Notes under the pieces: generated by a model
What the model was told of the DNA's origin: nothing
The model's input: the letters and a program-made list of their open reading frames with translations, nothing else
Databases searched by the model: none
Part shown: positions 7,081-55,710 of the stretch, piece after piece
Layout: every line of letters begins with the position of its first letter
Numbering within the stretch: position 1 is the stretch's first letter
Position numbers and translations under genes: made by a program
DNA from: Lachnospiraceae bacterium
Lineage (GTDB): Bacteria > Bacillota > Clostridia > Lachnospirales > Lachnospiraceae
DNA: 64,000 nt
Reading direction: 5' to 3'
NCBI GenBank assembly: GCA_030524525.1
Contig: JAUNGI010000001.1
Location: 1 to 64,000, forward strand

Positions 7081-7081
7081 C

Positions 7082-8792: not shown

Positions 8793-8813
8793 ATTCTTTT
8801 ACCCAGTCCCCCC

Positions 8814-11669: not shown

Positions 11670-11681
11670 AAGCGCCTCCCC

Positions 11682-13838: not shown

Positions 13839-13851
13839 ATGCTCCTCCCTC

Positions 13852-18562: not shown

Positions 18563-18575
18563 GGCATCCTCCCGA

Positions 18576-26604: not shown

Positions 26605-26612
26605 TCAAAACC

Positions 26613-26641
26613 TCCGAAAGCCCGGCAAAATACCGGGCTTT
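26613..26641 (-). terminator. intercistronic hairpin between binding-protein and mannanase genes
   Basis: Arms CGAAAGCCCGG (26613-26623) and CCGGGCTTTCG (26631-26641), 11 base pairs, loop of 7. On the minus strand it is not followed by a clean T run, so it more likely protects the upstream binding-protein mRNA and trims downstream expression than stops transcription fully. The mannanase RBS begins right at its base. Confidence 0.6.
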
Positions 26642-26658
26642 CGAAGAAAACCAAACGA

Positions 26659-28071
26659 TTAATTTCCAAAGTTGGTATCAAGATAATCCTGAACAAGCTG
26701 CTTGTTCGTCTCGATTACCTGAGCAACCTCGCAGGAACCGTCGATCAAACCACGGATGTTGTAGTCGTCGGAAAGCTTAACCTGATCCCACAGCTCGATC
26801 GTGAAATCGGAGTCTTCATCGGTCATGGAGCAAAGAACGTCGAAGTTGGTCTCGCTGTTCTTGCTTCCTGCCATCCACTCCTCTGCCCACGTGGTCTTGT
26901 CGCGGAGCGTAAGATCATCGCCGTACCATGCGGTATAGTCGCGCAGTACATAGTAGATCTGCTTCGGATCGTCAATTCCCTTCGGGATCATGTAGAAGTT
27001 ACCGCTCGTCTGATTGTAGGAAGCAACCTTCTGTCCTTCCGCTACATCCGGACCGGTCGGCCAAGGAACGATACCAAGGTCGATCTGATGCTCCGGATCG
27101 GCAGACTGAACGATCCAGCATGCAGCCGGGAAGAATGCAACATTGCCCTTGCCGAATGCATATACGTTGCTGTCCCAGTCAGCGTCGCAGTCAGCGTTCC
27201 AGAAGGATACGCCCTTGTCAACATAAATTTCCTTCATGAAGTTCAGTACGTTGGTCGTTGCCTGAGAGCTCAGACCCTCAACAACCTGACCGTCTTCGTT
27301 CGGAGACGGGGACGCTACAGAAGCGCCGTTCGAGAACAGAAGCTGCGTAAAGGTGTTCGTCCAAGCGCCTCTGTAACCATACTGTCCTGCGGACGTATTG
27401 GTCAGCTTCTCCATGTACTCCATCCACTTGGACCAAGTCCACTCGCCTCTAAGGTAGAGCTCGTAAGGATCTTCCAAGTTGGCAGCCTCGATGAGCGCCT
27501 TGTTGTAGCCCAGAGGGTAGCCGTTCGTGTTCTTTGCCTTTCCGTAGAACAGATAGGTCTTATCGGAGCCCGGAAGCTTGAGTCCCTGGAAGGACTCGTT
27601 GTTCATCTCTTCTTCGGTCAGGAAATCTTCCAAACCTTCCGCATAGCCTGCCAGAACTGCAGGAAGACCGAACTGCAGGTCTACCTGATAAACTTCACAG
27701 TTCGGGGAACCAGCCATGATGGAGGTATTGATCGACTCGATAACACCGTTCCATGTCAGGTTCTTAAAATAAAGTTCAATGTTGTAGCGATGCTCGATTG
27801 CTCTCATGTTGTCGAGCTGCATCTGCGCCTCGTCCAGATTGTTTACGTTCGGGTTTGCATCAACCGACTGATGTGCAGAGGTATAATACTGCTCGAACCA
27901 AGTACCGATGTTGATCGTACGCTTCTCTGGATGCGCCAGTTCGCTGGTCGGCTCAACCGCTTTCGTGGGGGTGTTGTCCTTATTCTTGTCATCGTCCTTA
28001 TCCCCGCAGGCCACCATAGCGAACACCATGGAGAGAACCAGCATCAAGGCTAAAATTTTCTTCATTTTCAT
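26659..28071 (-). CDS. sugar ABC transporter substrate-binding lipoprotein (mannooligosaccharide candidate)
   Basis: 470 residues. Lipobox MVAC with Cys22, acidic linker, then an extracellular solute-binding fold of the family-1 (MalE-like) type. ASVASPSPNEDG, FGKGNVAFFPAACW and LGIVPWPTGPD are typical of large oligosaccharide-binding proteins. It lies next to MalF and MalG genes and right before the mannanase gene, which makes beta-manno-oligomers the likely ligand. No ATPase gene is in the locus, as is common where a shared MsmX-like ATPase serves many importers. RBS AAAGGAG. Confidence 0.92.
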   Translation of the reverse strand: MKMKKILALMLVLSMVFAMVACGDKDDDKNKDNTPTKAVEPTSELAHPEKRTINIGTWFEQYYTSAHQSVDANPNVNNLDEAQMQLDNMRAIEHRYNIELYFKNLTWNGVIESINTSIMAGSPNCEVYQVDLQFGLPAVLAGYAEGLEDFLTEEEMNNESFQGLKLPGSDKTYLFYGKAKNTNGYPLGYNKALIEAANLEDPYELYLRGEWTWSKWMEYMEKLTNTSAGQYGYRGAWTNTFTQLLFSNGASVASPSPNEDGQVVEGLSSQATTNVLNFMKEIYVDKGVSFWNADCDADWDSNVYAFGKGNVAFFPAACWIVQSADPEHQIDLGIVPWPTGPDVAEGQKVASYNQTSGNFYMIPKGIDDPKQIYYVLRDYTAWYGDDLTLRDKTTWAEEWMAGSKNSETNFDVLCSMTDEDSDFTIELWDQVKLSDDYNIRGLIDGSCEVAQVIETNKQLVQDYLDTNFGN

Positions 28072-28086
28072 TTTTCTTTAACTCCT

Positions 28087-29364
28087 TTACTCCGGAAGCT
28101 CGCCAATGGTAACCTTGTAGATGTTGATCGCAGCGCCTCTGTCGGCAACGCCGAGGAAGCTGCAGTAGGTCTTCCAATCCTCGCCGGTCGTGCCGAAGCC
28201 CTTGTTCAACGCCTCAGCGATCTCCTCGTAGGTGTACTGAACGATCGTGCGGGCATTGTTTCTGCGGTCGGTCTCAAGATAATCGTCGGTAAAGTTCCAA
28301 ACATCCGCACTGCCGCCGGCAAAGCTTCCGTCCTCGGTCGCCCATGCCTGTGCACGGAGATACGGGATCTGGTAGCGGTTTTCATCCGTATGTTCAAACG
28401 GCTGATCATAGTAAATCGTCATGACCATACCCGGCTTGAAATCGTCCGGACTAAGCTGCGCGCCGTAACCGTTCTCTTTTGCAACGCCGTCCACGAAGCT
28501 CATGGAGTTCTTTGCATCCGGCCACCAGCCGCTTCCGGTCTTCACGCCGGTCAGGACGATCTTCTCGTTGACGGGCTCCTTCGTTGCGTTGTCCCATACA
28601 AGGTTGAGCCAGAAGCTCTGGTCGATTCCCTCTACGGTGTTGAACTTCACGGATGTGTCCGGAGTAATAACGTTGCCGTCCTTATCACGGAACACAATGT
28701 TGTCGAGAGCCACGTCAAAATCCGTGGACTCGATCGGGTTTCCGTCGATGACCGTAAAGCAGATGTAGTTCTTTGCTCCCGTTACAAAGCCGCCTTCGGG
28801 AACGTCAACCGTGTAAGTCTTCGGGTTCTGCTCCTCAAGGTAAACGGACCACGGGGTCGTTGACTCTACATTGCCTTCGCCGGTGTACATCAGCAGAGAG
28901 CCGGCAACGGCCTGGAAAGCGCCGCCCTTGTAGTCGATACCGATGTCAAACTGGATCTTGGCTACATCGGCTGCCTTCTCGCCGAGCATTCCGACAACGT
29001 CGATCGCGATAAACGGATGCTTACCGGAAAAGATGTTGTCGCTGGCCGGAGAGGTCGCAACCAATCCCTTGGAGCCTGCAAAGTCCTTAACGCTCAAGGT
29101 CGATGCAAGATCGCATGCCGCGTTGCTCAGCGCAATTACGGCAAAGTCTGCATTTCCGTCCTCAAAATTCACATAACTGGATGCGTCTTCCGGAAGGTCG
29201 GTACGTTCCTTCACTTCCGGGGTCGGAGTTGCAGACGGCGACGAAGAAGGCGCGCTCGTGGGAGTTACGTCTTTGTTTTCGTCGTCTGATTTCTTGTCGC
29301 CGCATGCTACAAGTGCCATGGACATGGTAGCGACAAGCATCAGTGCAAGAATTTTTTTAAACAT
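28087..29364 (-). CDS. lipoprotein with two CBM-like beta-sandwich domains, function unassigned
   Basis: 425 residues from the ATG at 29364, where AAGGAGGAG stands at good spacing; a longer open frame upstream is ignored. Lipobox LVAC with Cys21, then a Ser/Thr/Pro linker (about 35-52). Two domains of about 170-190 residues follow: YVNFEDGNADFAVIAL and KFNTVEGIDQSFWLNLVWDN, each rich in aromatic residues (GSGWWPDAKN, YYDQPFEHTDENRY). No catalytic motif is visible. Placed between MalG and the binding-protein gene, it is best read as a surface carbohydrate-binding protein. Its signal peptide is nearly identical to that of the next binding protein. Confidence 0.7.
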   Translation of the reverse strand: MFKKILALMLVATMSMALVACGDKKSDDENKDVTPTSAPSSSPSATPTPEVKERTDLPEDASSYVNFEDGNADFAVIALSNAACDLASTLSVKDFAGSKGLVATSPASDNIFSGKHPFIAIDVVGMLGEKAADVAKIQFDIGIDYKGGAFQAVAGSLLMYTGEGNVESTTPWSVYLEEQNPKTYTVDVPEGGFVTGAKNYICFTVIDGNPIESTDFDVALDNIVFRDKDGNVITPDTSVKFNTVEGIDQSFWLNLVWDNATKEPVNEKIVLTGVKTGSGWWPDAKNSMSFVDGVAKENGYGAQLSPDDFKPGMVMTIYYDQPFEHTDENRYQIPYLRAQAWATEDGSFAGGSADVWNFTDDYLETDRRNNARTIVQYTYEEIAEALNKGFGTTGEDWKTYCSFLGVADRGAAINIYKVTIGELPE

Positions 29365-29387
29365 GATACTCCTCCTTGGATATTTTT

Positions 29388-29415
29388 TCAAGAAAAACCA
29401 CTTGTTTTTTCTTGA
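29388..29415 (-). terminator. intercistronic hairpin between MalG and CBM-like lipoprotein genes
   Basis: Arms TCAAGAAAAA (29388-29397) and TTTTTCTTGA (29406-29415). It lies just upstream of the lipoprotein RBS. More likely an mRNA processing or stability element than a full stop, since the genes on both sides belong together. Confidence 0.5.
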
Positions 29416-29449
29416 TATAACAAGAGAGCTCCGCTCTCCTATTACCATT

Positions 29450-30397
29450 TTAACCTACAATACCGCTTCGTTCAACACCTTCGATGAAGAATTTCTGAAG
29501 GACGCAGTAAATCAGGATCACCGGAATCAGGATCAAAACGATACCGGCATACAGGTACATGGTCAAAAACGCAGGGTTTTCGATCTCGTATACCGCTCCA
29601 ACCTCCTGCGACAGCGCGCTGATCCGCATCGAAACCGCGCTGGACAAGCCGAAGAGCTTGGAGTAAAACAGGTCGTTGTACTGCCATACGAGCGAGAACA
29701 CGGCAACCGTGATTACCGAAGGCATGGCGTTGACAAGCATGATCCGGAAATAGGTGTAGAAGCTGCCCGCGCCGTCCACGAACGCCGCTTCCTCGATCTC
29801 CTTCGGAAGTCCTCGGAAGAACTGGTTGAACAGGTAAATGTACAATCCGGAACGAAGTCCGCTGCCGAATACCGTCAGCAGATAAAACGGCCAGATCGTA
29901 TTGTACAGATTCACCGTCTGCGTGAAGGTCAAATACAGCGGCAGCATGATGGCGTGGGTCGGAATAACGATCATTACGACAACGCAGCCAAAGAGAACGC
30001 CCTTCAACGGGAAATCAAACCGTGCAAAGCCGTAGCCGACCATCGAGCAGATAAAGATCTGGATCAGCATCAAGGCGAAGTCATTGCCGAGCGACTTCAG
30101 GATCGTCGTGGGATACGGCAGAACCTTCCATGCGGCAACGTACTTCTCCAGCGTCGGCTGGGTCGGAATAATGTACACCATCGGATTCGTCAGGTCGGTG
30201 TCCGAAAAGAACGACTGGGCGATCATTCGAATCAACGGGCTCAAAATGACGTACGAAACGCCGAGCAGGATACAAAAGCGGAACACGAAGAACAAAAATT
30301 TCTTAAAGTACTTGAGCGCACGCCTTTTGTCGTTCTGGAAGAACTGATCGTTTTGCAGTTCCTGATAACGAAGCTTTGCTTTTGCAATAGATACCAT
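29450..30397 (-). CDS. MalG-type sugar ABC permease (second pair)
   Basis: 315 residues. Six predicted helices, the first at about 36-58 after a basic N terminus. The EAA loop that contacts the ATPase is EIEEAAFVDGAGSFYTYFRI (about 205-224), and the protein ends near FFIEGVERSGIVG, typical of MalG (FxxGLxxGAVKG variant). Pairs with the MalF-type gene 17 bases upstream. RBS AAAGGAGG. Confidence 0.93.
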   Translation of the reverse strand: MVSIAKAKLRYQELQNDQFFQNDKRRALKYFKKFLFFVFRFCILLGVSYVILSPLIRMIAQSFFSDTDLTNPMVYIIPTQPTLEKYVAAWKVLPYPTTILKSLGNDFALMLIQIFICSMVGYGFARFDFPLKGVLFGCVVVMIVIPTHAIMLPLYLTFTQTVNLYNTIWPFYLLTVFGSGLRSGLYIYLFNQFFRGLPKEIEEAAFVDGAGSFYTYFRIMLVNAMPSVITVAVFSLVWQYNDLFYSKLFGLSSAVSMRISALSQEVGAVYEIENPAFLTMYLYAGIVLILIPVILIYCVLQKFFIEGVERSGIVG

Positions 30398-30414
30398 ATT
30401 TTTGTCCTCCTTTC

Positions 30415-31329
30415 CTAGTTATAGTAGAATGTTCGCTTCTGTATGATCGCGACGACGATGAACAGCACCGCGCACACAACGATCGTGCTGACCAAGCTCA
30501 TCGCGCTTCCGTAATCGTAATGGTTGTTGCTGAAAATTTCGTTGTAGGACAGCGTTACGACCTCGCTGTTTGCGAAGGAATCCACCACCGTATAAACCAA
30601 GCAGGTGATGATGTGCGGCATTACCATCGGGAAGGTAACCTTCCAGAAGGTCTCGTACCCGGTCGCTCCTTCGATCTTCGCCACCTCGTACAGCGAGCCT
30701 GCAATGGACTGCAGCGCCGCAATGAAAATAACGATCTGAACGCCGGAAAGCGAAACCACATCCGCCAGCCGCTCTACCGCGCCGACAACGTAATCCAAAA
30801 TACCGGACGGAAGTCCAATGTCCTTGAACAGCGCCAAATAGTAATCCACATTGATGGACGACGAGGACGCTGCGACAATATCGGAGGCCGTCGAGCTGAC
30901 GCCGCCGACCATGGCGGAACGCGCATTTTCAATCGCCTGTGTGATCGCCGCGGACCCCATAATGACCGGCAGGAAGAAAACGGCACGAACGACGGTTCTT
31001 CCTACAAACTTCTGGTTCAGAAGCATTGCCATCAGCAAGCTGAAAATAATGATCAACGGTACGTCGATAAAGACGTTCTTCATGGAAAGAACCAGCTGCT
31101 GATTGAACGTAGGGTGCTCAAGGAAAATATATTTCAGATTCTTCAGCCCTACAAACTTTGCTTCATAACCTCCTACCGAGGGGCTGACCTCGCTCAAAGA
31201 AAACTGCACGGTCATGTAAATGCTTCGAACGTAATAAACGAGGAAGCCGATCAGCCAAGGGCTGATAAACAAAAGACCGGTTATGGCACGTTTATGAGCA
31301 AGGGACATTCTATGCTTCTTTTTGTTCAT
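30415..31329 (-). CDS. MalF-type sugar ABC permease (second pair)
   Basis: 304 residues with six or so membrane helices; the first follows a basic N terminus (KRAITGLLFISPWLIGFLVY). The EAA loop is EVAKIEGATGYETFWKVTFP. A Ser-rich insertion (GGVSSTASDIVAASSSSINV, about 136-155) sits between helices and is longer than usual. It follows the DUF5696 gene by 15 bases, which ties the second permease pair to the accessory genes. RBS AAGGAGGGG. Confidence 0.92.
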   Translation of the reverse strand: MNKKKHRMSLAHKRAITGLLFISPWLIGFLVYYVRSIYMTVQFSLSEVSPSVGGYEAKFVGLKNLKYIFLEHPTFNQQLVLSMKNVFIDVPLIIIFSLLMAMLLNQKFVGRTVVRAVFFLPVIMGSAAITQAIENARSAMVGGVSSTASDIVAASSSSINVDYYLALFKDIGLPSGILDYVVGAVERLADVVSLSGVQIVIFIAALQSIAGSLYEVAKIEGATGYETFWKVTFPMVMPHIITCLVYTVVDSFANSEVVTLSYNEIFSNNHYDYGSAMSLVSTIVVCAVLFIVVAIIQKRTFYYN

Positions 31330-31344
31330 GATACGCTCCCCTCC

Positions 31345-33960
31345 TTACTCAAAGCGATAGGTTTCGGTGGAACCGTTTCCGGTCACCGTTACCGTATTGC
31401 TGCTCTTGTCAACAGTAATCACAACGCCGTTGCTGTAGGTGATTTTCGCGCCGTTTTCCGTCAGTTCGTGGCGATCCATCGTGGAATTTGCCACCTGACG
31501 AAGCACTGCATTGACCTGCGTGTACATCGCTACGGCGTCCTCATACCAAGTGTCAAACGTGGTGCTGAAATAATTGTTCAGTCCCGTGTATTTCAGTTCA
31601 GAAGAATCTTCCCATGTAAACGTGAAATGCGGGTAAGCTCCGTTTTCAATCATTTCCAAGCACTCTTCTGCCATCGGCAGGTTCTTGTTCAGGTTATAAG
31701 ACTTTCCGCAGTAGTCCACATAGCCGTGGATCACCATTTCATAGAACGGAACCTCCTCGTTGATATATACATACGAGTTTTTGTAGAAGGTCACGTTCAA
31801 AACGTCGTCCGCGTACGGAAGCGCATAGCCGAGCGCATTGTTGAACATCAGGTTCTCCTGCGCTTCGTCGGATTTCTCGATCATGGCAAGTATGATGTCC
31901 TTTGCCATGTCTCTGGTAATGAATTCCTTCCGCTTCTTGTCGGAGTATACGATCGTGCCAAGGTCGCGGAACGAAATGCCGGAAACCTCCAGCTTTTCCA
32001 TATCCTTGAGCATCGGCTCAACATATCTCGGCAGATACTTCGGAGAAAGCAGATCGTACAGGTTTTCGATATAGCCAAGCGACGCCGAGCGGCTGTAGGT
32101 GGTCGGAGAAAGCTTTCCGAAGCCCGCCACATAGCCCTTGCCGTAATACCGGGCGCCCTCTGCGGTGTAGTTAAAGTCGTCGTCCGCGTAGGTCACCTGC
32201 TGGATCGCCATGTCTCCGTAAAGCAGACCGCCGTTCTCCTCCAAAAGCTTTTTCAGAGACGCCAGACCGCTCTTGCCGCCGAGCTTCCGAATGACCTTGA
32301 TGTCGTCCGTCGCATCGTGGTAATAGCCGCCGTTCATCCAGCCCTGATAATTGACGATCAGATTGTGAACCGACTGCTCCTGAAGCTTCTTTACGATATC
32401 CTCCGCCTGTTCAAACGTGGTCATCGCAAAGACTTCGTCGTACTTAAAGCCCGCAAAAGAGGATTCTCTCTTTACGGCTCCGAGAATGTCAAGGTAAAGC
32501 TTGATGTCCTCGCTCTCGTTGGTGATCAGCGCCGCCGCTTCCTCACCGAAAAGCATTTCGCGGTAATATTTTGCCATGCCCGAATAGCCGTCGTATTCGT
32601 CCGTTTCCGGAAGCACATGGTAGGTCTGCACAAGATAAGCGTCATACAGATCCTTCTCAAGAACCGGCATCGGGTCCGCGGAGCCTGCGACCGTAACGTT
32701 TTCGATGTGACGCAGGCGGAATCTCGTATAAATGTAGTTATAGTAGTTCAGAACGTCCGATACCGTCGCATTGATCTGAGCAAAGGTCTCGCCGTCGTCG
32801 ATCGTGACAAGCATCGTGCTGTTCTCTTTCTGGATTCCGTAAAGCGCAAGCTTCACATCCTCCGTAATGTCCTGCTGCGTCCGGTCAACGTCCAGAAGGT
32901 CTTCTCCGTAAACAAACTCGGAATAGGTGCTGTTGCTTGCCATCAGACCGTTGTTGAAGTTGATGAGCGCTCCGGAACCGTTCGGTACAAAGAAGTAACC
33001 GTCGCTTCCGTCCTTCTTTTCCGCATTGAAGAACGGCAGTACCGTCAACTCATAGAGTCTTGCGCCGCCCGCCTCCTCGATCTTCGTGGTGGGTACGGAA
33101 ACCTTCAGACCGTCGTCGGTCAGACGATATTCGAGCGGAACCGTCAAAGCGATCGGAACCGTTGCTTCGGCTCCCGCCTCTTCCATATCGTTCTTGTAAT
33201 CGTCGTAGGTGTAACCGATTCCCGTCAGACACGATTCCAGCTTGCTGATGTGGAACGCCGACTTTCTTGTTACCTCCGGCAGCTCCTTAAAGCCCTCGTG
33301 CGTCTTCGAATCGATGTAATAGCCTTTGAACAGAACGGCAAGCGAATGGTCGGTCGCTTCCATCTGTTCGAGCAGCTCGTCGTAGCGGTCGCTGCTCAGA
33401 TAGAGCGGAACCATGCCGGTGTCGTTCGAGGAGCTCTGCATCGTGTAGACGATCCGCAGGCCGTCCTTGATGCTTTCCAGCTTGTAGCGCGGCTCCTCTC
33501 CGTCGCGCAGCTCCACGTCAACGCAGAACTCAAAGGAATTGAAGGTCTGCAGCGCCTCTGCGTTGCCATCCATGTAATAGGTGGCAATGAGCTGGGACTG
33601 AAGGTTGTAATAATTCATATCGGAATTCGTACCTTCGTCCGCTTTCTGTCCCAGATTCAGAGGGTTTGTGCTGTATACCTGCCCGGTCTTCTTGTCCGTC
33701 AGAGCGACCACGCAGGTCTCTTCGTTGACGTACAGCCGAAATCCGTCGTTCTCCGCCGCCAGCACGAAGCCCTTCGCCGGAGCCGAGGCGTCCGTTTTTC
33801 CGGCAAATTCCGTTCCCTCCTCGTACACGCTGTAATCCTCGACATATTTCTTGTACTCATCATAGAAGGTATATTTTACCAGATAATGAATCACATACGC
33901 CGCTACGCAGACCACAACGAGTGCAACAAGACCGAGGATAATTTTTTTGTATCGTTTCAT
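31345..33960 (-). CDS. DUF5696-type membrane-anchored extracellular protein
   Basis: 871 residues. One N-terminal membrane helix (about 7-27), the rest extracytoplasmic. It matches the DUF5696 family as I know it: large proteins beside sugar ABC permeases in Firmicutes, with a middle region that looks like a TIM-barrel glycosidase (NLIVNYQGWMNGGYYHDATDDIKVIRKLGG, YGDMAIQQV, SGISFRDLGT). Whether it keeps catalytic residues is unclear to me. Its place between two permease pairs suggests it processes or presents substrate at the cell surface. RBS AGGAGG. Confidence 0.82.
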   Translation of the reverse strand: MKRYKKIILGLVALVVVCVAAYVIHYLVKYTFYDEYKKYVEDYSVYEEGTEFAGKTDASAPAKGFVLAAENDGFRLYVNEETCVVALTDKKTGQVYSTNPLNLGQKADEGTNSDMNYYNLQSQLIATYYMDGNAEALQTFNSFEFCVDVELRDGEEPRYKLESIKDGLRIVYTMQSSSNDTGMVPLYLSSDRYDELLEQMEATDHSLAVLFKGYYIDSKTHEGFKELPEVTRKSAFHISKLESCLTGIGYTYDDYKNDMEEAGAEATVPIALTVPLEYRLTDDGLKVSVPTTKIEEAGGARLYELTVLPFFNAEKKDGSDGYFFVPNGSGALINFNNGLMASNSTYSEFVYGEDLLDVDRTQQDITEDVKLALYGIQKENSTMLVTIDDGETFAQINATVSDVLNYYNYIYTRFRLRHIENVTVAGSADPMPVLEKDLYDAYLVQTYHVLPETDEYDGYSGMAKYYREMLFGEEAAALITNESEDIKLYLDILGAVKRESSFAGFKYDEVFAMTTFEQAEDIVKKLQEQSVHNLIVNYQGWMNGGYYHDATDDIKVIRKLGGKSGLASLKKLLEENGGLLYGDMAIQQVTYADDDFNYTAEGARYYGKGYVAGFGKLSPTTYSRSASLGYIENLYDLLSPKYLPRYVEPMLKDMEKLEVSGISFRDLGTIVYSDKKRKEFITRDMAKDIILAMIEKSDEAQENLMFNNALGYALPYADDVLNVTFYKNSYVYINEEVPFYEMVIHGYVDYCGKSYNLNKNLPMAEECLEMIENGAYPHFTFTWEDSSELKYTGLNNYFSTTFDTWYEDAVAMYTQVNAVLRQVANSTMDRHELTENGAKITYSNGVVITVDKSSNTVTVTGNGSTETYRFE

Positions 33961-33970
33961 TCTTATCCTC

Positions 33971-34600
33971 CTATCTGAACAACAATTCGGTGTAAATGCT
34001 CTGGAAGAAGCCGACTACCTGACTGACAAGGCTGAAGATCATCATGGCGCAGAAGATAATAATGAGCATGGCCACGACCGTCAGTACAACGGTGATCAGG
34101 GTCTTCAGCAGCGTGTAGTTGTGGATCGTCATAATTCCGATCAGCATTAACAGCAGAGAATATGCAGTTCCCAGATAAACTATGATGTAGTAAAACGCTT
34201 CCTCGTTCTGCGCAACGATCTTGGAAATGATGGTCGCCGGGATCAGCGTCAGGATCATCGGCAGCAGGGAATAGCCAACGATGATGGCAATATCCTTCAA
34301 GCGCCCTTCTCCGGACATCAAGCAGGTGATCGACCAGTTTCCGACGCAGATCAGCAGGAACAGAAGGAGCACGCCGAACAGCTCCGAGACCGCATCCACG
34401 TTTCTCGGGTTGGTGTCGTTTACGATAAAGCTTGCGCCCAACCGGTTCCACGAATAGCACAGCGCATAAAGGACAACGTATATAAGCGCAATCGGCACGC
34501 TGCCGCGGTTCCGGTGGCGTATCTCATAAAAACCGTCCGCAGGATGAGTCAGACAGTAAAAACTGAATTTCCATTTGTCCTTGGAAAAATACTTTTTCAT
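33971..34600 (-). CDS. Yip1-like multispanning membrane protein
   Basis: 209 residues with five or six helices (about 38-52, 73-93, 105-130, 138-160, 165-190). The start KWKFSFYCLTHPADGFYEIRHRNRGS is the usual opening of Yip1/DUF1282-type proteins in these loci. No catalytic residues. It lies 10 bases before the DUF5696 gene and 16 after the NHL gene. A scaffold role in the membrane is plausible but unproven. RBS GGAGGAG. Confidence 0.8.
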   Translation of the reverse strand: MKKYFSKDKWKFSFYCLTHPADGFYEIRHRNRGSVPIALIYVVLYALCYSWNRLGASFIVNDTNPRNVDAVSELFGVLLLFLLICVGNWSITCLMSGEGRLKDIAIIVGYSLLPMILTLIPATIISKIVAQNEEAFYYIIVYLGTAYSLLLMLIGIMTIHNYTLLKTLITVVLTVVAMLIIIFCAMMIFSLVSQVVGFFQSIYTELLFR

Positions 34601-34616
34601 ATCTTCTCTCCTCCTG

Positions 34617-36134
34617 TTATTCTAACGTGTCGGCACTGTCGTCGCGATACTTCTTTCGATTGCGGATCTTCTTCACCACAACCACGGCAACGATCAGAAC
34701 CGCAAGCGCGCTCAGCATCCACTCAAGGTTTTCCACGAGGAATTCGTTTCGGTACCGGCGGTATGCGATCGAATAATACTGGCGGCTCATGCCGTTTTCA
34801 AGATATTCCATCGCCTTCTTGTTCTCTCCCGCCGACAGGTAGGACTTTCCAAGACCGATGTAAGCCAGCTCAAAGTTGGCGTCGAGCTTCAGAACCTCTT
34901 CCCAGAGCGGAACCGCCAGCTCCTCGTTTCCGTCGAAGCGAAGTCCCACGGCTTCGTTGATCAGCGAGCCGTATTCCGTCGGCTTGAACAACAGAATAAT
35001 GTTCTGGTTCCGGTCCGCCACCATGATCTGCCCGTTCGTATTCTGCTCGATGGAGGACGGCGCTTGGAAGCAGCCCTCCTGAACACCGAGACCGCCGAAA
35101 ATATACAGCAGGTTTCCTTCGTGATCGTAGGTGAAAATTCTTCCTCTCTTGGAGTCGAGGAACGAATAAATTCCGTTGTCCCGGTACACGACGTCAACCG
35201 CCGTGGATTTTCCGCTGTAGGAGTTTGTCTCCACGATGTCAATATCGCCGCCGATATTTGCGTTTACGCCCTTTTTGATTACGTCGTTGCCCTTCGGGTT
35301 CAGACGCATGACTGCCTGCAAACCGTTCTCGTCAAGATAGGACGCATAGATAAAGCCGTTCGGGTCCACGTCCAGACCATTGTACTCGGTGGAAATACGG
35401 AGCGTCTGCTTATCCTTCTGCTCTCTCGTGGACAGATGATACCAGATTCGCTGCCACGTCGTGACTACAACGGGGATCTGTCCGTAGAACGCCTCGAACT
35501 GATAATCTGTATTGAAAATCATGATACCTTCTTCGGTATTCTTTGCGATAACGTAAATTCGTTCCGCATAGTCTACGATGACCTTCAGCGGTGCGAAGAT
35601 AAAGCCGTCTTCCAAGACGTTGTCGCCCTGCTCCGGATTTTGGATCACATGTACGAATTCATAGTCCTGATCCAGAATGACGACGCGGTTGTTGCCGGTG
35701 TCCGCAATATAGAGGTTTCCGTCCGGGGATTCGGAGTGGCATACGCCCTGCGGTTCATTGAATTCGCTCCACTCCCCGTTTTCATCGGTAAATCCGGTAA
35801 TAACAGAAACGTAGGAGTAATCCTCGCTGGATATTACAACGATCCGGTTGTTTTTTGTATCCGCAATATAAATATTGCCGTCCGCCGCCAGATAAACATC
35901 CTCCGGTCCGCTGAACGCGCCGATGGAGTTGCCCTCGGCGTCCTTGATCGAAGTTCCCTCGATCTTGCCGTCCGGAATATAAGCCGCCGGCGTATAGACC
36001 ACGTTTTCCCAATAATCGTAGTTATAGGTAACGTACGGCACGTCGTCCGCGGCGCACACGGAGGTCATCACAAGGACGGCAGCCAGCGTCAGGAGAATAA
36101 GCTTCTGAAATATGGATTTGCTTTTTCTTTTCAT
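34617..36134 (-). CDS. NHL-repeat protein with TPR segment and C-terminal membrane anchor
   Basis: 505 residues. Signal peptide (about 1-29, ending VCAAD), NHL beta-propeller repeats from about 60 to 370 (GPEDVYLAADGNIYIADTKN, EPQGVCHSESPDGNLYIADT, APSSIEQNTNGQIMVADRNQ), a TPR-like pair (AVPLWEEVLKLDANFELAYIGLGKSYLSAGENKKAMEYL, about 400-440), then one membrane helix at about 471-487 and a basic tail. The propeller therefore faces outside on a tether. Propeller plus TPR suggests protein or glycan docking, not catalysis. [13 protein letters not shown]. Confidence 0.85.
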   Translation of the reverse strand: MKRKSKSIFQKLILLTLAAVLVMTSVCAADDVPYVTYNYDYWENVVYTPAAYIPDGKIEGTSIKDAEGNSIGAFSGPEDVYLAADGNIYIADTKNNRIVVISSEDYSYVSVITGFTDENGEWSEFNEPQGVCHSESPDGNLYIADTGNNRVVILDQDYEFVHVIQNPEQGDNVLEDGFIFAPLKVIVDYAERIYVIAKNTEEGIMIFNTDYQFEAFYGQIPVVVTTWQRIWYHLSTREQKDKQTLRISTEYNGLDVDPNGFIYASYLDENGLQAVMRLNPKGNDVIKKGVNANIGGDIDIVETNSYSGKSTAVDVVYRDNGIYSFLDSKRGRIFTYDHEGNLLYIFGGLGVQEGCFQAPSSIEQNTNGQIMVADRNQNIILLFKPTEYGSLINEAVGLRFDGNEELAVPLWEEVLKLDANFELAYIGLGKSYLSAGENKKAMEYLENGMSRQYYSIAYRRYRNEFLVENLEWMLSALAVLIVAVVVVKKIRNRKKYRDDSADTLE

Positions 36135-36146
36135 TTCTCCTCCTCC

Positions 36147-37037
36147 TTAATCCTTCATACCGGACGACGTCATGGTTTCCAGAATGTTGCTCTGGCAAAT
36201 CAGGAAAAAGATGACCGGTACGGCTGCCAAAACAAAGGTAACTGCCTGTGCGGCGCCCGCTCTTGCCGCGCCGCCGCCCTGAATCTGCAATAACGCGTAC
36301 TGCATCGGCTTCAGCTGCTCGCTTCGCAGGTAAGTGGAACCGGTGTTGCCCCACATGGACTGGAACTGGAAGATCGCCAGCGTCAGCCATGCCGGCTTTA
36401 CGTTCGGCATTACGATGCTCCAAAATACCCGGAACTCGGATGCGCCGTCCAGCCGCGCCGACTCCATCAGGGAGTTCGGCAGCTGCTCCATAAACTGCTT
36501 CATCAGGTAAAGACCGAGACCGTACTGCCAAGCGGTCAGTATCAGCGCCCAGTAGGTATTGTTGATATGCAGATACGAAACGATCATATAGATCGGGATC
36601 TGCGTTACCGTCCACGAGAACATCAGGGACAGTTCAACCAAGTTGAACAGCGTGTTCTTTCCGGGGAAGTTGTGCTTCGCCAGCGGATAGGCTGCCAGCG
36701 AGGCGATCAGAACGTGTCCGAGCGTACCGCCGCCGGTAATGATGATCGTGTTGGCAATGTATCGCGAGAACGGCACCCAAGTATCGTTCATGCTGACGAA
36801 CAGGTCGGTGAAGTTATCCAAGGAAGGGTTTCTTACGAAAATCTTCGGCGGATACTGGAAAATTTCGTCCAGAGGCTTCAGCGCGTTGTTGATAATCATG
36901 ACGAGCGGCAGCGCCATAAAGCAGCCGCAAATAATCATGAAGGTAAATATCAGCGTATTGCCCGCTGCGGAACGGTTCAACTGCTTTTGACGGTGGAATA
37001 GTCTTCTTTTTGGCTTTTTCATTTTTTCTTTTGCCAT
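36147..37037 (-). CDS. MalG-type sugar ABC permease (first pair)
   Basis: 296 residues. Basic N terminus, six helices, EAA loop SLMESARLDGASEFRVFWSI, C terminus near FFLICQSNILETMTSSGMKD. This end is the one common in the YteP/YtcP-like polysaccharide importer branch (SSGMKD/GSVKG type). It follows its MalF partner by two bases and precedes the NHL gene by 12. Confidence 0.93.
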   Translation of the reverse strand: MAKEKMKKPKRRLFHRQKQLNRSAAGNTLIFTFMIICGCFMALPLVMIINNALKPLDEIFQYPPKIFVRNPSLDNFTDLFVSMNDTWVPFSRYIANTIIITGGGTLGHVLIASLAAYPLAKHNFPGKNTLFNLVELSLMFSWTVTQIPIYMIVSYLHINNTYWALILTAWQYGLGLYLMKQFMEQLPNSLMESARLDGASEFRVFWSIVMPNVKPAWLTLAIFQFQSMWGNTGSTYLRSEQLKPMQYALLQIQGGGAARAGAAQAVTFVLAAVPVIFFLICQSNILETMTSSGMKD

Positions 37038-37039
37038 GC

Positions 37040-37960
37040 TTACTCACCCACCCTTCTTAACAGTCTCTGTATTAACTTGTTGGATACGACCATCATCAGG
37101 AACAGCACCGTTGCGATCGCCGACGCATAACCCATTTCAAAACGGTAGGTACCGTAGTCCAACAGGTGGGTTACGATCGTGGCGCCCGCATAGTTGACGC
37201 TTGGGTTGCCCGCAAGCTGGATGGAAACGTCCGATACCGCAAAGGAGTTCGTGATCTGCATAACCGCACCGAACCTCAGCTGCGGCTTCATTGCCGGCAG
37301 GGTCACATACCAAAGCTCCTGCCAACGGTTCTTTACGCCGTCCATGGCAGCCGCTTCGTAAAGCGACTTATCGACGGTCTGAAGACCCGCGATGAACGAC
37401 AGGAAGCCGGTACCGAGACTCAGCCACAGCTGGACGATCATCAGACACGGAAGCACATACGCCTCGGTCTGGAACCAAAGGATCGGCTCGTCAATGATGC
37501 CCCAGCGGATCAGGAAGCCGTTCAGATAGCCGTAACGGTCGGAGCTGAGGATCAGGCTCCATACAAGGTACGCCTGACCGCAGATGGACGGCGCGTAAAA
37601 GATCAGCGTCAGGAACGCTCTGACCTTTCCCTTGAATTCGTTGATGATCCATGCAAACAGCAGACACATCAGGTAGCTGATCGGACCGGTGATCACGGCA
37701 AACAGCAGCGTGTTCTTCAGCGCGATCAGGAAAATATCGTCCTGCAGGAAGAGCTTTACATAGTTATCCCACCCGATAAACTGGGGAGCTTCCAACATGT
37801 TGAAGTATGTAAAGCTCAAAACGATGGATGCCAAAACCGGCAGGATCGTAAACAGGAAGAACAGAATAAAGTAAGGAGCCAGCATAATGTAGGAATATCT
37901 AGCACGATAAATTCTCTTCTTCAGCGTCCACTCGTTTTTCGCTTTTTCTAAGTTATCCAA
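37040..37960 (-). CDS. MalF-type sugar ABC permease (first pair)
   Basis: 306 residues, starting at a TTG codon with GGGGGAGAG upstream; no ATG is available nearby. Six helices, the first about 26-48 (YIMLAPYFILFFLFTILPVL). EAA loop SLYEAAAMDGVKNRWQELWY. Pairs with the MalG gene two bases downstream and follows the large binding protein gene by 16 bases. Confidence 0.92.
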   Translation of the reverse strand: MDNLEKAKNEWTLKKRIYRARYSYIMLAPYFILFFLFTILPVLASIVLSFTYFNMLEAPQFIGWDNYVKLFLQDDIFLIALKNTLLFAVITGPISYLMCLLFAWIINEFKGKVRAFLTLIFYAPSICGQAYLVWSLILSSDRYGYLNGFLIRWGIIDEPILWFQTEAYVLPCLMIVQLWLSLGTGFLSFIAGLQTVDKSLYEAAAMDGVKNRWQELWYVTLPAMKPQLRFGAVMQITNSFAVSDVSIQLAGNPSVNYAGATIVTHLLDYGTYRFEMGYASAIATVLFLMMVVSNKLIQRLLRRVGE

Positions 37961-37976
37961 TGCTCTCTCCCCCTCT

Positions 37977-40900
37977 CTAATCCAAGTTGAATTCTTTTCT
38001 CTTATATGCGATCTCGTCGTTGATGTAAATAACGCGATCCATCAATTCCTCACGAGGCGTCGCAGAGTCGGTTTTTGTCGTAACGGCGTAGAACGCGTTG
38101 TTGACATTTCTCCAAGAGAAATATCCGCCGGGCACCTGACGGATGCCGCGTACATGTTCGAACTGCTCCTCCAATACCTCGGCGATATCCGTCGGCCAAG
38201 GGATCAGTCCGAACGCTTCGATGTTCGCCGTCGCCACACGGGCGGAGGCGCCCATCAGGGACTCCATCTCGCTGCTGTACAGGTACTGCGTCTCGGCGCT
38301 GGTCCACCATTTCAGGAACTCCCAGCAAGCCAGCTTGTTTTCGGAGGCTTCCATAATAACGCATGCGGTGCCGGAGCTTGCCACGGTATTGTCGATGTAT
38401 TCGTTTCCGTTCTCATCGACTCTGACTTCTCCCGGAACGACCGCCATGCCCCACAGACCCTGAATATCCGGCGCGGAAACCTGCAGCGTATTATAATAGG
38501 TATAGTCGGTAATAATGATCGGAGCCTCACCGGTACGGAAGCGTTCCTCCACGGACGTTACCGTGTCCATCTTGAAGTCCGTATAGAACTCGGTAAACTT
38601 CCGGAATGCCGTTACCGATTCTTCCGAATCAAGCGCCGACTGCGAACCGTCTTCGTTGTAATATTCTCCGCCGTTCTGATAAAGAAGCATCGCGAAGTTC
38701 GACTCGGTGGGCATCATGCCCAGATCCATATTGTTCTGGCTGAGCTGGGTCAGCACGACCTTCATTTCTTCCCATGTGGTCGGAAGCTCAAGACCAAGCT
38801 CCTTCAAAATATCCTTGCGGTAGAACATCATCGCAAAGGTCTGCGTCTCCGGCAAGCCGTAAACCGCGGTATGCCCGTTGCTCGTAAAGCGGAAGGCCTC
38901 CATCGCGCTCTCACGGAAACGCTCCGAGATGATCTGCTCGCAATCCGCAAACTGGGAGAGATCCGCCACGGCGTTTCGCAGACCGTAGTTCATCGGCACA
39001 TCGTTGCCGACTTGGATCGCCACGTCCGGACCGGAGCCGGCAAGGGTCGCCTGCAGCAGCGTTCCCATGTCCACAAGCATAACGTTCACGCCGATAAAGT
39101 ATTCCTCTCCGTTTTCGTCGGTGTAGGACTTTGTCGAGAAGGTCTCGTCCAGCATCGACTTGATTACGTTCGCCTGATCTCGGCCGGTGCCGACCCAAAG
39201 GGTAATCAGCGTCTGGTTGCCGCCGTCGGACACGTCGCCGATCATGTTGTAGTCAATAACGAAGGAATAGAACAGACGCTTGATCTCGTGGAGCAGCTTC
39301 TGCCACCAAGAATCCTTCATCTCCGGCAGCTCGTCTTTGTCCGAAACGAGGTAGATCGCATCAAGCGCCAGCGGCTGCTCGATAACCTGCGTGATCCAAG
39401 TACCGCAGGCACGAATGTTCGTACGGAACGAGGATACGACCTTTACTACATACTCCGGATCGTCGATAATATCGTTCAGCTGGTCGCGCATCGTGATCAG
39501 CACGGTTTCCTTATCGCTGCCGGAACCAACCAGCTCGCGAAGTCTCTTGATCGTATCGTCCAGCAGATCTCTTACAACAATACATTCCTCCTGCAGCTCC
39601 GGCAGGTTGCGGCGAATCTGGTAATCCTTCCAGCTGTCCGGCGACGTACTGGTCACGCAGATGATCTCACGGTAGATGGCGTTCAGCTCCGTTACGGCCT
39701 CCTGCACATCCGAAACGATGGAGGAAAACTCGCCGAGCACGACTTCCATGCGGAGCGTGTGCTCTCCGGCTTCCAGATAAATGCTGAAAGCGCCGTCCTC
39801 ATTTCCCAGAACCTCCTGCCGCCAGTTCGACTCGTACTGGAAGCCGTATGCGTTAAATTCGTCGAACGGAACAACTCCGTCAATGGAGATCTTCCGGGAA
39901 ACATAAATACCTTTGCTAAAATTTTGTTTGACCGCAAGCGCCAGATTATAATATCCGGTCTCCGGTACGGTAATGTCCCATTCGATCCACTGACCGACCA
40001 ATCTCCAAGAGTTGCCGCCGATCGTGTTGTTCAGAAGATAACGGGGGCTGTACGGGGAAATCGCCGGCGACGACTGATCCTGCTGCGGATAAAGCATCTG
40101 AGAGGATTTTCTTACCGCCTGCTCCGCCTGTACCTCGATCATCTGATTCGACGAAGCCGTTGCTCCGGCAGCGTCGTGCTGCGCCTTATAGTCCGCGTAG
40201 CTGATCGTCGAACCCACATAGTCCATCGTAATATTATAAAGAAGCATCGGCTCCTTGATGGAAACCATCGTCAGAACATGCTCTCCTGCTTCTATGTAGA
40301 TCGGAAGACAATGCGAAATATATCCGTTACTGTCATAAAGATAGGAATGCATCCAGTCCGGCGCTTCTGCCTGAGACGGTTTCAGGTGATTGCCCTGATT
40401 GTCCGAGCTCCACTCCCACGCTTTTGCGGTGCCGTCATAATTCACCTCGTTTACCCAAATACGAGAAAACTTAATATTGGTCATTTCCGCATAAGGAAGA
40501 GCGCCGTCCAAGAAGAAAGCGCGTTCGATATCCGCATTCTTGCCCTTCACCGGGAAATAGGTAAGGGAAACATAATAGTAACCGCTCTGCTCTGCCGTAA
40601 ACTTCCAAGAAACGAATCCCTCGTCCGCGGTCAGCAGCGAGTCCGACAGACCGGTCTGCTTCCATGCCTCCGCGACCTCCGAATAGTCGCTGTTCGGCTT
40701 CACCTCGGTCTCCATGTCGCTCGCCTCGGCGTAGTAGTCCTTGGCTGCGATCTGGATCGAAGCGTCCGTCTTGGTATCCGGGAAGCGTTCGGTGTATTCC
40801 TTATACGTCAGAACGCTGTCGTCGATGTTGTAGGTTCCAAGGATGTCTTTGTACATGTCCAAGGTCATATCTTCTACAGCGGTCTTCTGTTCCGTCGGCT

Positions 40901-41099
40901 CTTGTTCGTCCGCATCGTCCTGCGAAGCGTCGGTGCCGTCATCGGGCGTAGCCGTGTCCGCAGGTTCCGAGCTTTCCGTGGGCGCCGAATCGTCGCCGGC
41001 GGCCTCGCCCTCTGCAAAACACAGGGAAGCTGTTTCCAACATCATCGAAATCACCAAAAGCATTACGATTCCTTTTTTAAACAGTTTCTTGATTTGCAT
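37977..41099 (-). CDS. very large solute-binding protein with N-terminal carbohydrate-binding-like modules
   Basis: 1040 residues from the ATG at 41099 (AAGGAGGA five bases upstream), overlapping the DUF624 gene by 23 bases. A Sec signal ends near SLCFA-EGE; no convincing lipobox. An acidic Pro/Thr linker (about 30-75) leads to two CBM-like beta-sandwiches (about 115-300 and 325-470, each with AGEHVLTMVSIK or AGEHTLRMEVVL near the end) and a helical stretch. The last 400 residues are a family-1 binding protein (LITLWVGTGRDQANVIKSML, GSGPDVAIQVGND, PTTWEEMKVVL). Ordinary binding proteins have 420-550 residues. It should capture polymer or long oligomers for the first permease pair. Confidence 0.88.
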   Translation of the reverse strand: MQIKKLFKKGIVMLLVISMMLETASLCFAEGEAAGDDSAPTESSEPADTATPDDGTDASQDDADEQEPTEQKTAVEDMTLDMYKDILGTYNIDDSVLTYKEYTERFPDTKTDASIQIAAKDYYAEASDMETEVKPNSDYSEVAEAWKQTGLSDSLLTADEGFVSWKFTAEQSGYYYVSLTYFPVKGKNADIERAFFLDGALPYAEMTNIKFSRIWVNEVNYDGTAKAWEWSSDNQGNHLKPSQAEAPDWMHSYLYDSNGYISHCLPIYIEAGEHVLTMVSIKEPMLLYNITMDYVGSTISYADYKAQHDAAGATASSNQMIEVQAEQAVRKSSQMLYPQQDQSSPAISPYSPRYLLNNTIGGNSWRLVGQWIEWDITVPETGYYNLALAVKQNFSKGIYVSRKISIDGVVPFDEFNAYGFQYESNWRQEVLGNEDGAFSIYLEAGEHTLRMEVVLGEFSSIVSDVQEAVTELNAIYREIICVTSTSPDSWKDYQIRRNLPELQEECIVVRDLLDDTIKRLRELVGSGSDKETVLITMRDQLNDIIDDPEYVVKVVSSFRTNIRACGTWITQVIEQPLALDAIYLVSDKDELPEMKDSWWQKLLHEIKRLFYSFVIDYNMIGDVSDGGNQTLITLWVGTGRDQANVIKSMLDETFSTKSYTDENGEEYFIGVNVMLVDMGTLLQATLAGSGPDVAIQVGNDVPMNYGLRNAVADLSQFADCEQIISERFRESAMEAFRFTSNGHTAVYGLPETQTFAMMFYRKDILKELGLELPTTWEEMKVVLTQLSQNNMDLGMMPTESNFAMLLYQNGGEYYNEDGSQSALDSEESVTAFRKFTEFYTDFKMDTVTSVEERFRTGEAPIIITDYTYYNTLQVSAPDIQGLWGMAVVPGEVRVDENGNEYIDNTVASSGTACVIMEASENKLACWEFLKWWTSAETQYLYSSEMESLMGASARVATANIEAFGLIPWPTDIAEVLEEQFEHVRGIRQVPGGYFSWRNVNNAFYAVTTKTDSATPREELMDRVIYINDEIAYKRKEFNLD

Positions 41100-41751
41100 C
41101 GTATTCCTCCTTATTTTTCTTGTCATACCACTGCTCCTGACCGTCCGCAGGTTCCGGTATGATGTTTTGATATATTTTTTCCGTCAGAAACGAAATAAGA
41201 AAACATGCGGCGCCGGGAACGAACAGCACCGTATATGGAGATAAGAAAATCAATCCGACCGACGTTCCAAGGATCAGCGCGATCCCGACGGAACTCGGCA
41301 GGTATCGGAATTCCAGAAAGAAACTGATTTTCAGCACGTCCCGGAACCCCATCTCAAATCGGGAGATCAAAGAAAAGACGTAAACTGCGGAAACTGCCAG
41401 AAGCAGCATCGCGGCGGCACAGATAAGGAAAAGAAGCATTCCCCTTTTCGTACCCTCCTCATGCCAAGCAATAACGTCCAGCAGCAGAAGCGCAAAGGCA
41501 AGCAGATACAAGACGCCGAACAAAAGCCCCTGCTTCCACTCTCTCCGCAAAGCGCCGTAATACTGGCTCAGTACATAATCCCTGTCGTTTCGGATCGCTT
41601 TTACGACCGAATAATACAGAGCCGTGCTGGCCAGTCCCGTGGTAACGATCGGGATCGAGGTCAATAACCATAACATCGAAGCGATCATCACCTTACCGAC
41701 TTTGTCAAAAAAACGAAGTAACGGTCCGTCCCAGGAAAAGAAATGTTTCAT
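41077..41751 (-). CDS. DUF624 family membrane protein (YesL-like)
   Basis: 224 residues, about five helices. The N terminus MKHFFSWDGPLLRFFDKVGKV is the family signature, followed by LLTSIPIVTTGLASTALYYSV. DUF624 proteins sit in many rhamnogalacturonan, xylan and mannan loci next to MalF/MalG genes; their role is unknown. It is the first gene of the mannan locus, with a promoter at 41845-41873 and an 87-base leader. Confidence 0.88.
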   Translation of the reverse strand: MKHFFSWDGPLLRFFDKVGKVMIASMLWLLTSIPIVTTGLASTALYYSVVKAIRNDRDYVLSQYYGALRREWKQGLLFGVLYLLAFALLLLDVIAWHEEGTKRGMLLFLICAAAMLLLAVSAVYVFSLISRFEMGFRDVLKISFFLEFRYLPSSVGIALILGTSVGLIFLSPYTVLFVPGAACFLISFLTEKIYQNIIPEPADGQEQWYDKKNKEEYDANQETV

Positions 41752-45871: not shown

Positions 45872-45886
45872 GTGTACCTCCATGCT

Positions 45887-45908
45887 TTTTCTCATACCGA
45901 TGAGAAAA
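45887..45908. promoter_or_regulatory. palindromic operator or leader hairpin upstream of the alpha-xylosidase gene
   Basis: Perfect inverted repeat, arms TTTTCTCAT (45887-45895) and ATGAGAAAA (45900-45908) around ACCG. It lies about 15 bases after the predicted transcription start and 7 bases before the RBS, so it may bind a repressor or fold in the RNA. Confidence 0.6.
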
Positions 45909-55218: not shown

Positions 55219-55221
55219 GAT

Positions 55222-55710
55222 CTACCTCTCTGTTTCGTATGTATCCTGCTGCAGCCGGCTCTCGTCCGCGTCGGCAGCCGTCGTCGCCAGCCGGTCGCAG
55301 CGCTCGTTTTCGGGGTGGCCGTCGTGTCCCTTGACCCAGCGGAAGGTCACCTGATGGGGCTCCGCCGCCGCCAAAAGCCGCAGCCACAGATCTTTGTTTT
55401 TGACCGGCTCCTTTTTGCTGTTTTTCCAGCCGTTCTTCTTCCAGCCCTCGATCCAGTGCTGCGTAAACGCATGGACAAGATACTGCGAATCGGAAAACAG
55501 CTCCACCTGACAGGGGCGATTCAGCGCCTCCAAGCCGACGATGGCGGCAAGCAGCTCCATCCGGTTGTTCGTCGTCTTGACAAAGCCGCCGGAAAGCTCC
55601 CGCTCATGAAGCTGCCCCGCGCCGTCAACATATTGCAGGATCGTGCCGTAGCCCCCCGGCCCGTCCGGATTGCCCCTTGCGGAACCGTCCGTATAGATCG
55701 TCACTTTCAT
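55222..55710 (-). CDS. rnhA: ribonuclease HI
   Basis: 162 residues. The catalytic set D8 ([12 protein letters not shown]-like), E52 (NNRMELLAA), D74 (FSDSQYLV) and D139 (ERCDRLA) is complete, with H129 in [12 protein letters not shown]. It cuts RNA in RNA-DNA hybrids. Its ATG overlaps the stop codon of the membrane MutS-like gene (ATGA), so those two are translationally coupled. Confidence 0.96.

Follow-up and report, generated by a model that had tools for sequence, protein, structure and literature searches.

Uptake of large glycans by Gram-positive gut and soil bacteria is usually told as the work of enzymes and one simple ABC importer. What, then, are two complete sugar-permease pairs doing around three proteins that are not transporters, in a single operon of a Lachnospiraceae bacterium (assembly GCA_030524525.1, contig JAUNGI010000001.1, positions 1 to 64,000; this whole stretch of 64,000 nucleotides is called the window below)? 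The operon lies entirely on the minus strand and encodes, in the direction of transcription, a DUF624 protein, a giant binding protein (SBPg), a MalF-type and a MalG-type permease (F1, G1), a protein with an NHL propeller and a TPR-like part (NHL), a Yip1-like membrane protein (Yip1), a DUF5696 protein, a second permease pair (F2, G2), a CBM-like lipoprotein and a second binding protein (SBP2). NHL, Yip1 and DUF5696 are referred to here as the trio. Genes for GH26-CBM35, GH130, a GDSL esterase, an epimerase-GH130 fusion, a phosphomannomutase-type protein and phosphomannose isomerase follow 3' of SBP2 on the same strand. A Pfam scan and the coordinates of the open reading frames agree with the gene order and domains given in the original prediction, which had been made from the sequence alone, and BPD_transp_1 domains in all four permeases bear out its two MalFG-type pairs flanking the trio. 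On balance, the operon is probably one copy of a conserved polysaccharide-uptake platform of Bacillota, of which SBPg, F1, G1, NHL, Yip1, DUF5696, F2 and G2 would form the core and SBP2, CBM lipoproteins and glycan enzymes the exchangeable parts.

Five of the parts (DUF5696, NHL, SBPg, F1 and F2) were searched for in 200 genomes of the window's family, its own included, with score cut-offs that we chose ourselves, those for DUF5696 and F2 after score gaps had been seen. DUF5696 at 300 bits or more, NHL at E<=1e-40, SBPg at E<=1e-60, F1 at E<=1e-70 and F2 at 207 bits or more were each found in 43 of the 200 genomes, and the five sets consist of the identical 43 genomes. The next F2 scores, in genomes without the cassette, reach no more than 183 bits; at E<=1e-30, F2 matches 126 of the 200 genomes, other sugar permeases included. 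F1 and the top F2 matches occur exclusively in cassette genomes. These searches score few candidates per genome and hence report presence only, not copy number. At E<=1e-3 the DUF5696 model matches 79 genomes, 36 of which have weaker matches only and were left out of the count of cassette genomes; of 15 weaker matches fetched, ten were scanned, and eight of these score with GH101/GH129-type models. The remaining two (L226, L227) are short solo relatives of DUF5696 (560-584 residues, 166-181 bits) in which the N-terminal part is missing. In a sample of the phylum, DUF5696 is present at E<=1e-30 in 37 of 398 genomes and, at the same threshold, in none of 14 well-known control genomes; two of the controls match the model at E<=1e-3, below the family cut-off. 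Named carriers include Lachnoclostridium phytofermentans, Anaeromicropila populeti and Thermoanaerobacterium butyriciformans.

Gene order was read in 102 fetched cassettes, comprising 62 of 73 family places (the window and the second copy in its genome included) and 40 of 55 non-own phylum places; 11 of the family places over 300 bits and 15 of the phylum places were left out, one fetched comparison locus with a masked run was excluded, and linkage was counted only where the fetched flank sufficed. NHL and Yip1 lie immediately upstream of DUF5696 in 95 of 96 cassettes, and F2 and G2 immediately downstream of it in 95 of 95. F1 and G1 are found upstream in 73 of 87 cassettes and downstream in seven more (80 of 87 within reach). 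Together with 80 named loci, chosen by similarity to the window's DUF5696 protein and lying partly on the same contigs, the cassettes form a set of 182 loci (three of whose DUF5696 proteins are not full length), in which Yip1 is present in 161 of 161, NHL in 160 of 161 and F2G2 in 166 of 166. F1, G1, F2 and G2 are permease classes that a classifier built on 139 sequences separates on its own training sequences, with one G2 misassigned. The DUF624 protein was rejected as a core member, being matched in only 51 of the 182 loci. The eight-gene arrangement is well beyond chance. The part inseparable from the trio is F2G2, and the SBPg-F1G1 block may sit downstream or out of reach. The original prediction had expected the trio to be co-inherited with dual MalFG pairs and had named separate inheritance as the result that would speak against it; the neighbourhood survey found the identical 43 genomes and a near-fixed order, and no such separation. 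In the window's own genome, the second cassette may span two contigs, with NHL-Yip1-DUF5696-F2 running from the end of one (C59) and SBPg-F1 on another (C61).

Copies were counted in full in nine genomes, with genes split at contig breaks making every count approximate. Matches to DUF5696, SBPg and F1 number 10, 4 and 4 in both G261 and G334, 8, 4 and 4 in G364 and, fragments included, 19, 10 and 8 in G281 and 11, 6 and 6 in G239; the other four genomes have 6, 5 and 5 (G161), 3, 3 and 3 (G300), 2, 2 and 2 (G488) and 1, 1 and 1 (G438). The SBPg and F1 counts thus go together, and DUF5696 is clearly in excess in the first five genomes, in which expansion seems to have affected the trio part more strongly than F1G1. 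By extrapolation from the fetched loci, every extra DUF5696 gene would come with its own trio and F2G2. Such an excess fits F1G1 as a shared partner. A strict one-to-one linkage of SBPg-F1G1 and trio was rejected, given the loci out of reach and the unequal copy numbers, and the same two observations argue against a machine of strictly eight parts with all its genes at a single site. SBPg and F1 are nevertheless carried by all nine of these genomes, which include the four whose six loci lack a reachable F1G1.

Both permease pairs have the two BPD_transp_1 proteins with EAA loops that are typical of CUT1 importers, and an extracellular sugar-binding protein is recognizable for each, SBPg by Pfam and SBP2 by its PDB match. 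The Gly of the EAA loop, the contact of a permease to its ATPase, is 100% conserved in F1, G1, F2 and G2, and the Glu is 100% conserved in F1, G1 and F2 and 84-91% conserved in G2; with intact loops in all four permeases, both pairs should be powered. Two TOBE_2 ATPases are encoded in the genome, one of the UgpC/MalK type, unlinked to the operon, and one PotA-like, which in our reading adjoins its own permease; the former is the only UgpC-subfamily ATPase of the genome (498 bits, cut-off 432). SBPg consists, as we read it, of two beta-sandwich-like regions, a helical region and then the binding-protein domain. By a simple pattern test, a lipobox is present in 2 of 85 SBPg relatives, as opposed to 68 of 85 for SBP2. 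Since a free binding protein would be lost from a Gram-positive cell, SBPg probably needs some other anchor, the likely ones being the assembly or the N-terminal segment of SBPg itself.

Some of these observations could be accommodated by two ordinary, independent CUT1 importers, SBPg-F1G1 and SBP2-F2G2, which would take up different oligosaccharides of the same polysaccharide while the trio served F2G2 or the surface only and operon inheritance kept the cassette together. SBPg-F1-G1 is downstream of the trio in 7 of 87 loci and unreachable in 6, as opposed to F2G2 following the trio in all 95; the block copy numbers are clearly unequal in five of nine genomes; and the EAA loops are kept in all four permeases. 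Two independent importers agree poorly, however, with the fact that, at the cut-offs used, SBPg and F1 occur in none of the 200 genomes apart from NHL, DUF5696 and F2, nor these three apart from the former two, with the retention of both blocks in the nine genomes counted in full and with an SBPg that lacks the usual lipid anchor, and we regard this explanation as unlikely.

The proteins of the proposed platform also diverge together. In 85 dereplicated cassettes, drawn from the 103 of 182 loci in which all nine genes were found, pairwise identities of the eight core proteins correlate at 0.92-0.98, whereas the correlation of SBP2 with them is 0.76-0.84; mean identity is 0.23 for SBP2 and 0.34-0.59 for the core proteins. 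We read these correlations as pointing to a core that has not been shuffled and to SBP2 as the changing part. The idea that SBPg is nearly invariant across substrates was weakened, as its identity is 25-42% in 14 of 15 pairs; it reaches 53% between the window and L105, both with GH26-type genes, and has a mean of 44% in a set that contains many relatives of the window. Of 101 primary cassettes, 44 encode NHL and Yip1 as a single fused protein (44 of 182 loci), and on a FastTree phylogeny of 97 DUF5696 proteins the fusion state changes six times, at least five of them on strongly supported branches. The C-terminus of NHL past its last transmembrane-like stretch is rich in basic residues, as is the N-terminus of Yip1, so both ends should be intracellular and the fusion is topologically sensible. 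Taken together, this suggests contact between NHL and Yip1, and the fusion speaks indirectly for a physical complex of the eight proteins. An apparent fusion of Yip1 to DUF5696 in L049 was rejected, Yip1 being a separate, overlapping frame.

The same cassette occurs next to different glycan enzymes. In a single genome (G173), one copy (L038) lies by GH26/GH130-type genes, labelled from models of the window's proteins, and further copies adjoin GH28 (L055), GH32 (L083) and GH43 (L084, L085), one of the two GH43-linked copies also having a gene for L-arabinose isomerase. GH106, GH95, apiosidase and GH43-CBM genes are found in other cassette stretches. We selected the 20 neighbours that were scanned; certain of them, such as an rRNA methyltransferase, were unrelated, and others gave no match. 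The cassette appears to be a general platform and is not a mannan feature: the assignment of trio and permeases to a mannan locus, as originally proposed, holds for some copies only, as mannan enzymes accompany only those.

What DUF5696 contributes can be judged from its relatives. A profile of 18 diverse members matches in PDB the Zobellia 3,6-anhydro-D-galactosidase (5opq and 8rzg/8rzk, E 5e-11), as well as the GH129 enzyme NagBb (5wzn, E 4e-9). Aligned by hhalign with a GH129 alignment (A4) that itself scores 998 bits to NagBb, the family gives 98.9% (E 4e-17) and the close subfamily of the window's protein 96.0%, so that DUF5696 is related in sequence to GH129. The nucleophile and the acid/base of NagBb are D435 and E478, and Asp and Glu do stand at these positions when A4 is aligned with NagBb. 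Among 104 DUF5696 proteins of less than 60% identity, the column nearest the nucleophile (D666 in the window's protein) has Asp in 51, Gly in 21 and other residues in the rest, a short gap in the hhalign alignment making this column uncertain; the column aligned to the acid/base (N707) has Asn in 26, Glu in 24, Ser in 13 and Asp in 13. Neither the His nor the Asp of the HxD that precedes GW is among the common residues of these proteins, in which P738, G746 and N756 are the most strongly fixed, each present in 104 of 104. The GH129 nucleophile and acid/base are thus not conserved in the family, subject to the uncertain nucleophile column, and DUF5696 is probably not a GH129-type enzyme family. 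With no conserved catalytic residues, its members more likely bind or guide a glycan than cut it, and the suggestion that the trio processes polysaccharide finds no support in DUF5696. An active glycosidase of unusual mechanism, which would make the trio a processing station trimming glycan at the membrane before import, might be argued from the clear kinship to GH129/GH101 enzymes and from Asp666, which is invariant in the 55 sequences of the close subfamily (A3, the window's protein included) and may lie at the nucleophile strand. In view of the family-wide counts, the HxD that is not kept and the Asn that the window's protein has at the aligned acid/base pair, we consider it improbable. Less probable still is a role of the trio in sensing or envelope assembly, in which it would regulate or position the importers instead of moving glycan, with the propeller as sensor and Yip1 as membrane transducer: in the kinase PknD, the solved part is an NHL propeller (1rwi, among the PDB matches of the NHL profile) and Yip1 family members function in eukaryotic membrane trafficking, but Pfam detects in the trio no domain of a kinase, an anti-sigma factor or a regulator, and the order of trio and permeases is nearly fixed.

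Under the favoured reading, that of a conserved uptake platform, surface enzymes, GH26 in the case of the window, would cut mannan, and the tethered NHL propeller, SBPg and the DUF5696 pseudo-glycosidase would hold the chain and channel it at the membrane. SBP2 would feed oligosaccharides to F2G2; as F2G2 stays with the trio while SBP2 varies, SBP2-F2G2 is the favoured candidate for a substrate-specific conduit. F1G1 and SBPg would supply the common partner, which could be a second gate for import or, within the same assembly, an ATP-driven arm; this partner would be needed in the same cell, not necessarily adjacent, and may serve several trio units. Yip1 might act as the membrane hub that links the NHL protein, and through it the scaffold, to the permeases. 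Both pairs would be driven by a shared ATPase of the UgpC/MalK type encoded elsewhere, and intracellular GH130, epimerase, esterase, phosphomannomutase and phosphomannose isomerase would complete the breakdown of mannan. The physical complex, glycan binding by DUF5696, the direction of import, the shared ATPase and the division of labour are what we infer from the data above. A more demanding version, in which all eight proteins make up one machine, with F2G2-SBP2 as the conduit and F1G1-SBPg as a shared ATP-driven arm moving chains that are held by the pseudo-glycosidase and the propeller, is possible and is put forward tentatively.

Several points weigh against a uniform platform of this kind. 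Of 87 loci, six have SBPg-F1G1 out of the trio's reach and one (L084) has it rearranged, and the copy numbers of DUF5696, SBPg and F1 are not 1:1. One locus (L070) is without an NHL gene; in its place, directly upstream of Yip1 (6521-7849 of that locus), stands what we read as a sensor-like frame. The genome-wide searches covered five of the eight core proteins, namely DUF5696, NHL, SBPg, F1 and F2. Shared descent alone can yield co-divergence of adjacent genes, and SBP2 is the only internal control. The substrate is judged from adjoining glycan enzymes, which is indirect evidence, and the role could be either import or surface retention.

The features of the operon are listed in Table 1; the CBM-like lipoprotein and SBP2 fall just beyond the interval of the original prediction (29450..41751). 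The genes of DUF624 and SBPg overlap by 50 bases, and the successive spacings from SBPg to SBP2 are 16, 2, 12, 16, 10, 15, 17, 1 and 15 bases, so that the predicted order, close spacing (gaps of 1-17 bases past SBPg) and signal/anchor topology are borne out by the reading frames, Pfam and hydropathy. By simple hydropathy, the NHL protein begins with a signal-like stretch, carries a transmembrane-like one towards its C-terminus and is inferred to be located outside; SBPg has a signal-like stretch and no lipobox. TPR_2 on the NHL protein scores 17 bits only (cut-off 27), and the profile of the NHL family matches both NHL and TPR structures in PDB. The Yip1 domain above its cut-off and the multiple transmembrane-like stretches place Yip1 in the family of that name. 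The DUF624 protein scores 82.2 bits with MusI_fam, under the NCBIfam cut-off of 160, and is not assigned to MusI. A Pfam scan of SBP2 at E<=0.001 gave no match; its PDB match, 6rjy, is an arabino-oligosaccharide-binding protein. The region of the hairpin (26600-26660) folds at -28.7 kcal/mol (z -5.7 compared to shuffles), and with so strong a hairpin after SBP2 expression levels may differ between the transport part and the mannan enzymes, transporter transcripts perhaps being kept above enzyme transcripts. A promoter scan was uninformative (19 found, 13.0 expected).

Table 1. Features of the operon and the adjoining mannan genes in the window
Feature	Coordinates	Strand	Evidence and remarks
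DUF624/MusI-like small membrane protein	41077..41751	-	PF04854 48.2 bits; optional, outside invariant core
SBPg, giant binding protein	37977..41126	-	SBP_bac_8 75.3 bits at residues 688-952
F1, MalF-type permease, pair 1	37040..37960	-	BPD_transp_1; AlgM1 E 3e-18; EAA motif kept
G1, MalG-type permease, pair 1	36147..37037	-	BPD_transp_1; EAA motif kept
NHL propeller with TPR-like part	34617..36134	-	PF01436 62.5 bits, over cut-off; transmembrane-like stretches at 12 and 469
Yip1-like membrane protein	33971..34600	-	PF04893 60.2 bits (cut-off 28.6); five transmembrane-like stretches
DUF5696 protein	31345..33960	-	PF18952 585 bits; N-terminal transmembrane-like stretch, then GH129/GH101-like part
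F2, MalF-type permease, pair 2	30415..31329	-	BPD_transp_1; SugA/AlgM1 matches; EAA motif kept
G2, MalG-type permease, pair 2	29450..30397	-	BPD_transp_1; EAA motif kept
CBM-like lipoprotein, variable part	28087..29448	-	CBM65_1 18.8 bits, below cut-off; lipobox
SBP2, oligosaccharide-binding lipoprotein, variable part	26659..28071	-	PDB 6rjy E 8e-6; lipobox
Hairpin with T-run after SBP2, terminator-/attenuator-like	26611..26647	-	17-bp stem
GH26 with CBM35, substrate-specific neighbour	24922..26604	-	PF02156 236.6 bits; CBM_35 60.3 bits
GH130 manno-oligosaccharide phosphorylase	23866..24888	-	PF04041 256.7 bits
GDSL esterase	22746..23879	-	PF13472 64.8 bits
2-epimerase fused to GH130	20357..22705	-	PF07221 and PF04041; EpiA 274.5 bits, below cut-off 800
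Phosphomannomutase-type and mannose-6-phosphate isomerase genes	17627..20303	-	Domain scan

Upstream of the operon, a 479-residue protein (42121-43560, minus strand) matches nothing in Pfam, NCBIfam or PDB at the thresholds applied and has hits in only 3 of the 182 loci; it is rare and possibly an unassigned enzyme. The adjacent gene (43580-45895, minus strand) encodes a GH31 protein that scores 1215 bits with the NCBIfam alpha-xylosidase model (cut-off 606), an odd neighbour for mannan genes. Farther away on the minus strand are a full MutS near a second protein bearing only the MutS_V domain (52555-57395) and an export-type block of two HlyD-like proteins, an FtsX permease and two ABC ATPases encoded consecutively (7082-14931).

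Compared with known systems, the cassette resembles those CUT1 sugar importers of Bacillota that share an MsmX/MsmK-like ATPase in its MalFG-like pairs with EAA loops, its lipoprotein SBP2 and a candidate ATPase encoded elsewhere; unlike them, it has two dedicated pairs, three non-transporter proteins and one binding protein of about 1000 residues that is not lipidated. The alginate importer AlgM1M2 of Sphingomonas (PDB 4tqu, 4xtc), a polymer importer with a single permease pair that is not known to have such a trio, is the best solved relative of F1 (E 3e-18) and only weakly related to F2 (2e-5). DUF5696 is a profile relative of the GH129/GH101 glycosidases (NagBb 5wzn, Zobellia 5opq) but has an N-terminal transmembrane-like stretch and no family-wide catalytic residues. 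The mannan loci MULL/MULS of Roseburia intestinalis comprise GH26, two GH130, epimerase, esterases and an ABC importer (PMC6385246). That importer is described there with one binding protein and two permeases, whereas the window has two pairs and the trio (PMC6385246). In the open-licence literature we found no paper on DUF5696, or on Yip1 or NHL with sugar transporters, which is not proof of absence in print; the earlier statement that the trio has no assigned function agrees with this. The eight-gene cassette looks like an undescribed general platform for the uptake of plant polysaccharides, which current annotation would scatter over the labels 'DUF5696', 'YIP1 family' and 'NHL repeat'; as a platform, it gives these three proteins a testable role and provides a marker for polysaccharide loci in Bacillota.

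In role, the cassette is comparable to SusCD of Bacteroidota, a conserved uptake core with many paralogs, each accompanied by different hydrolases. Like SusCD, the cassette is a single conserved core with many paralogs beside varied hydrolases; unlike it, the cassette has no outer-membrane or TonB part, and Pfam detected no SusC/SusD or TonB-dependent barrel domains among the operon proteins scanned. Of the proposal that the trio may be a Gram-positive counterpart in spirit to outer-membrane glycan complexes, the likeness in role fits, given paralogous cassettes next to different glycan enzymes in one genome, while the parts are different. If the eight proteins did form one machine, the energy of ABC transport would do mechanical work outside the membrane, and the cassette would be the Gram-positive answer to SusCD-TonB.

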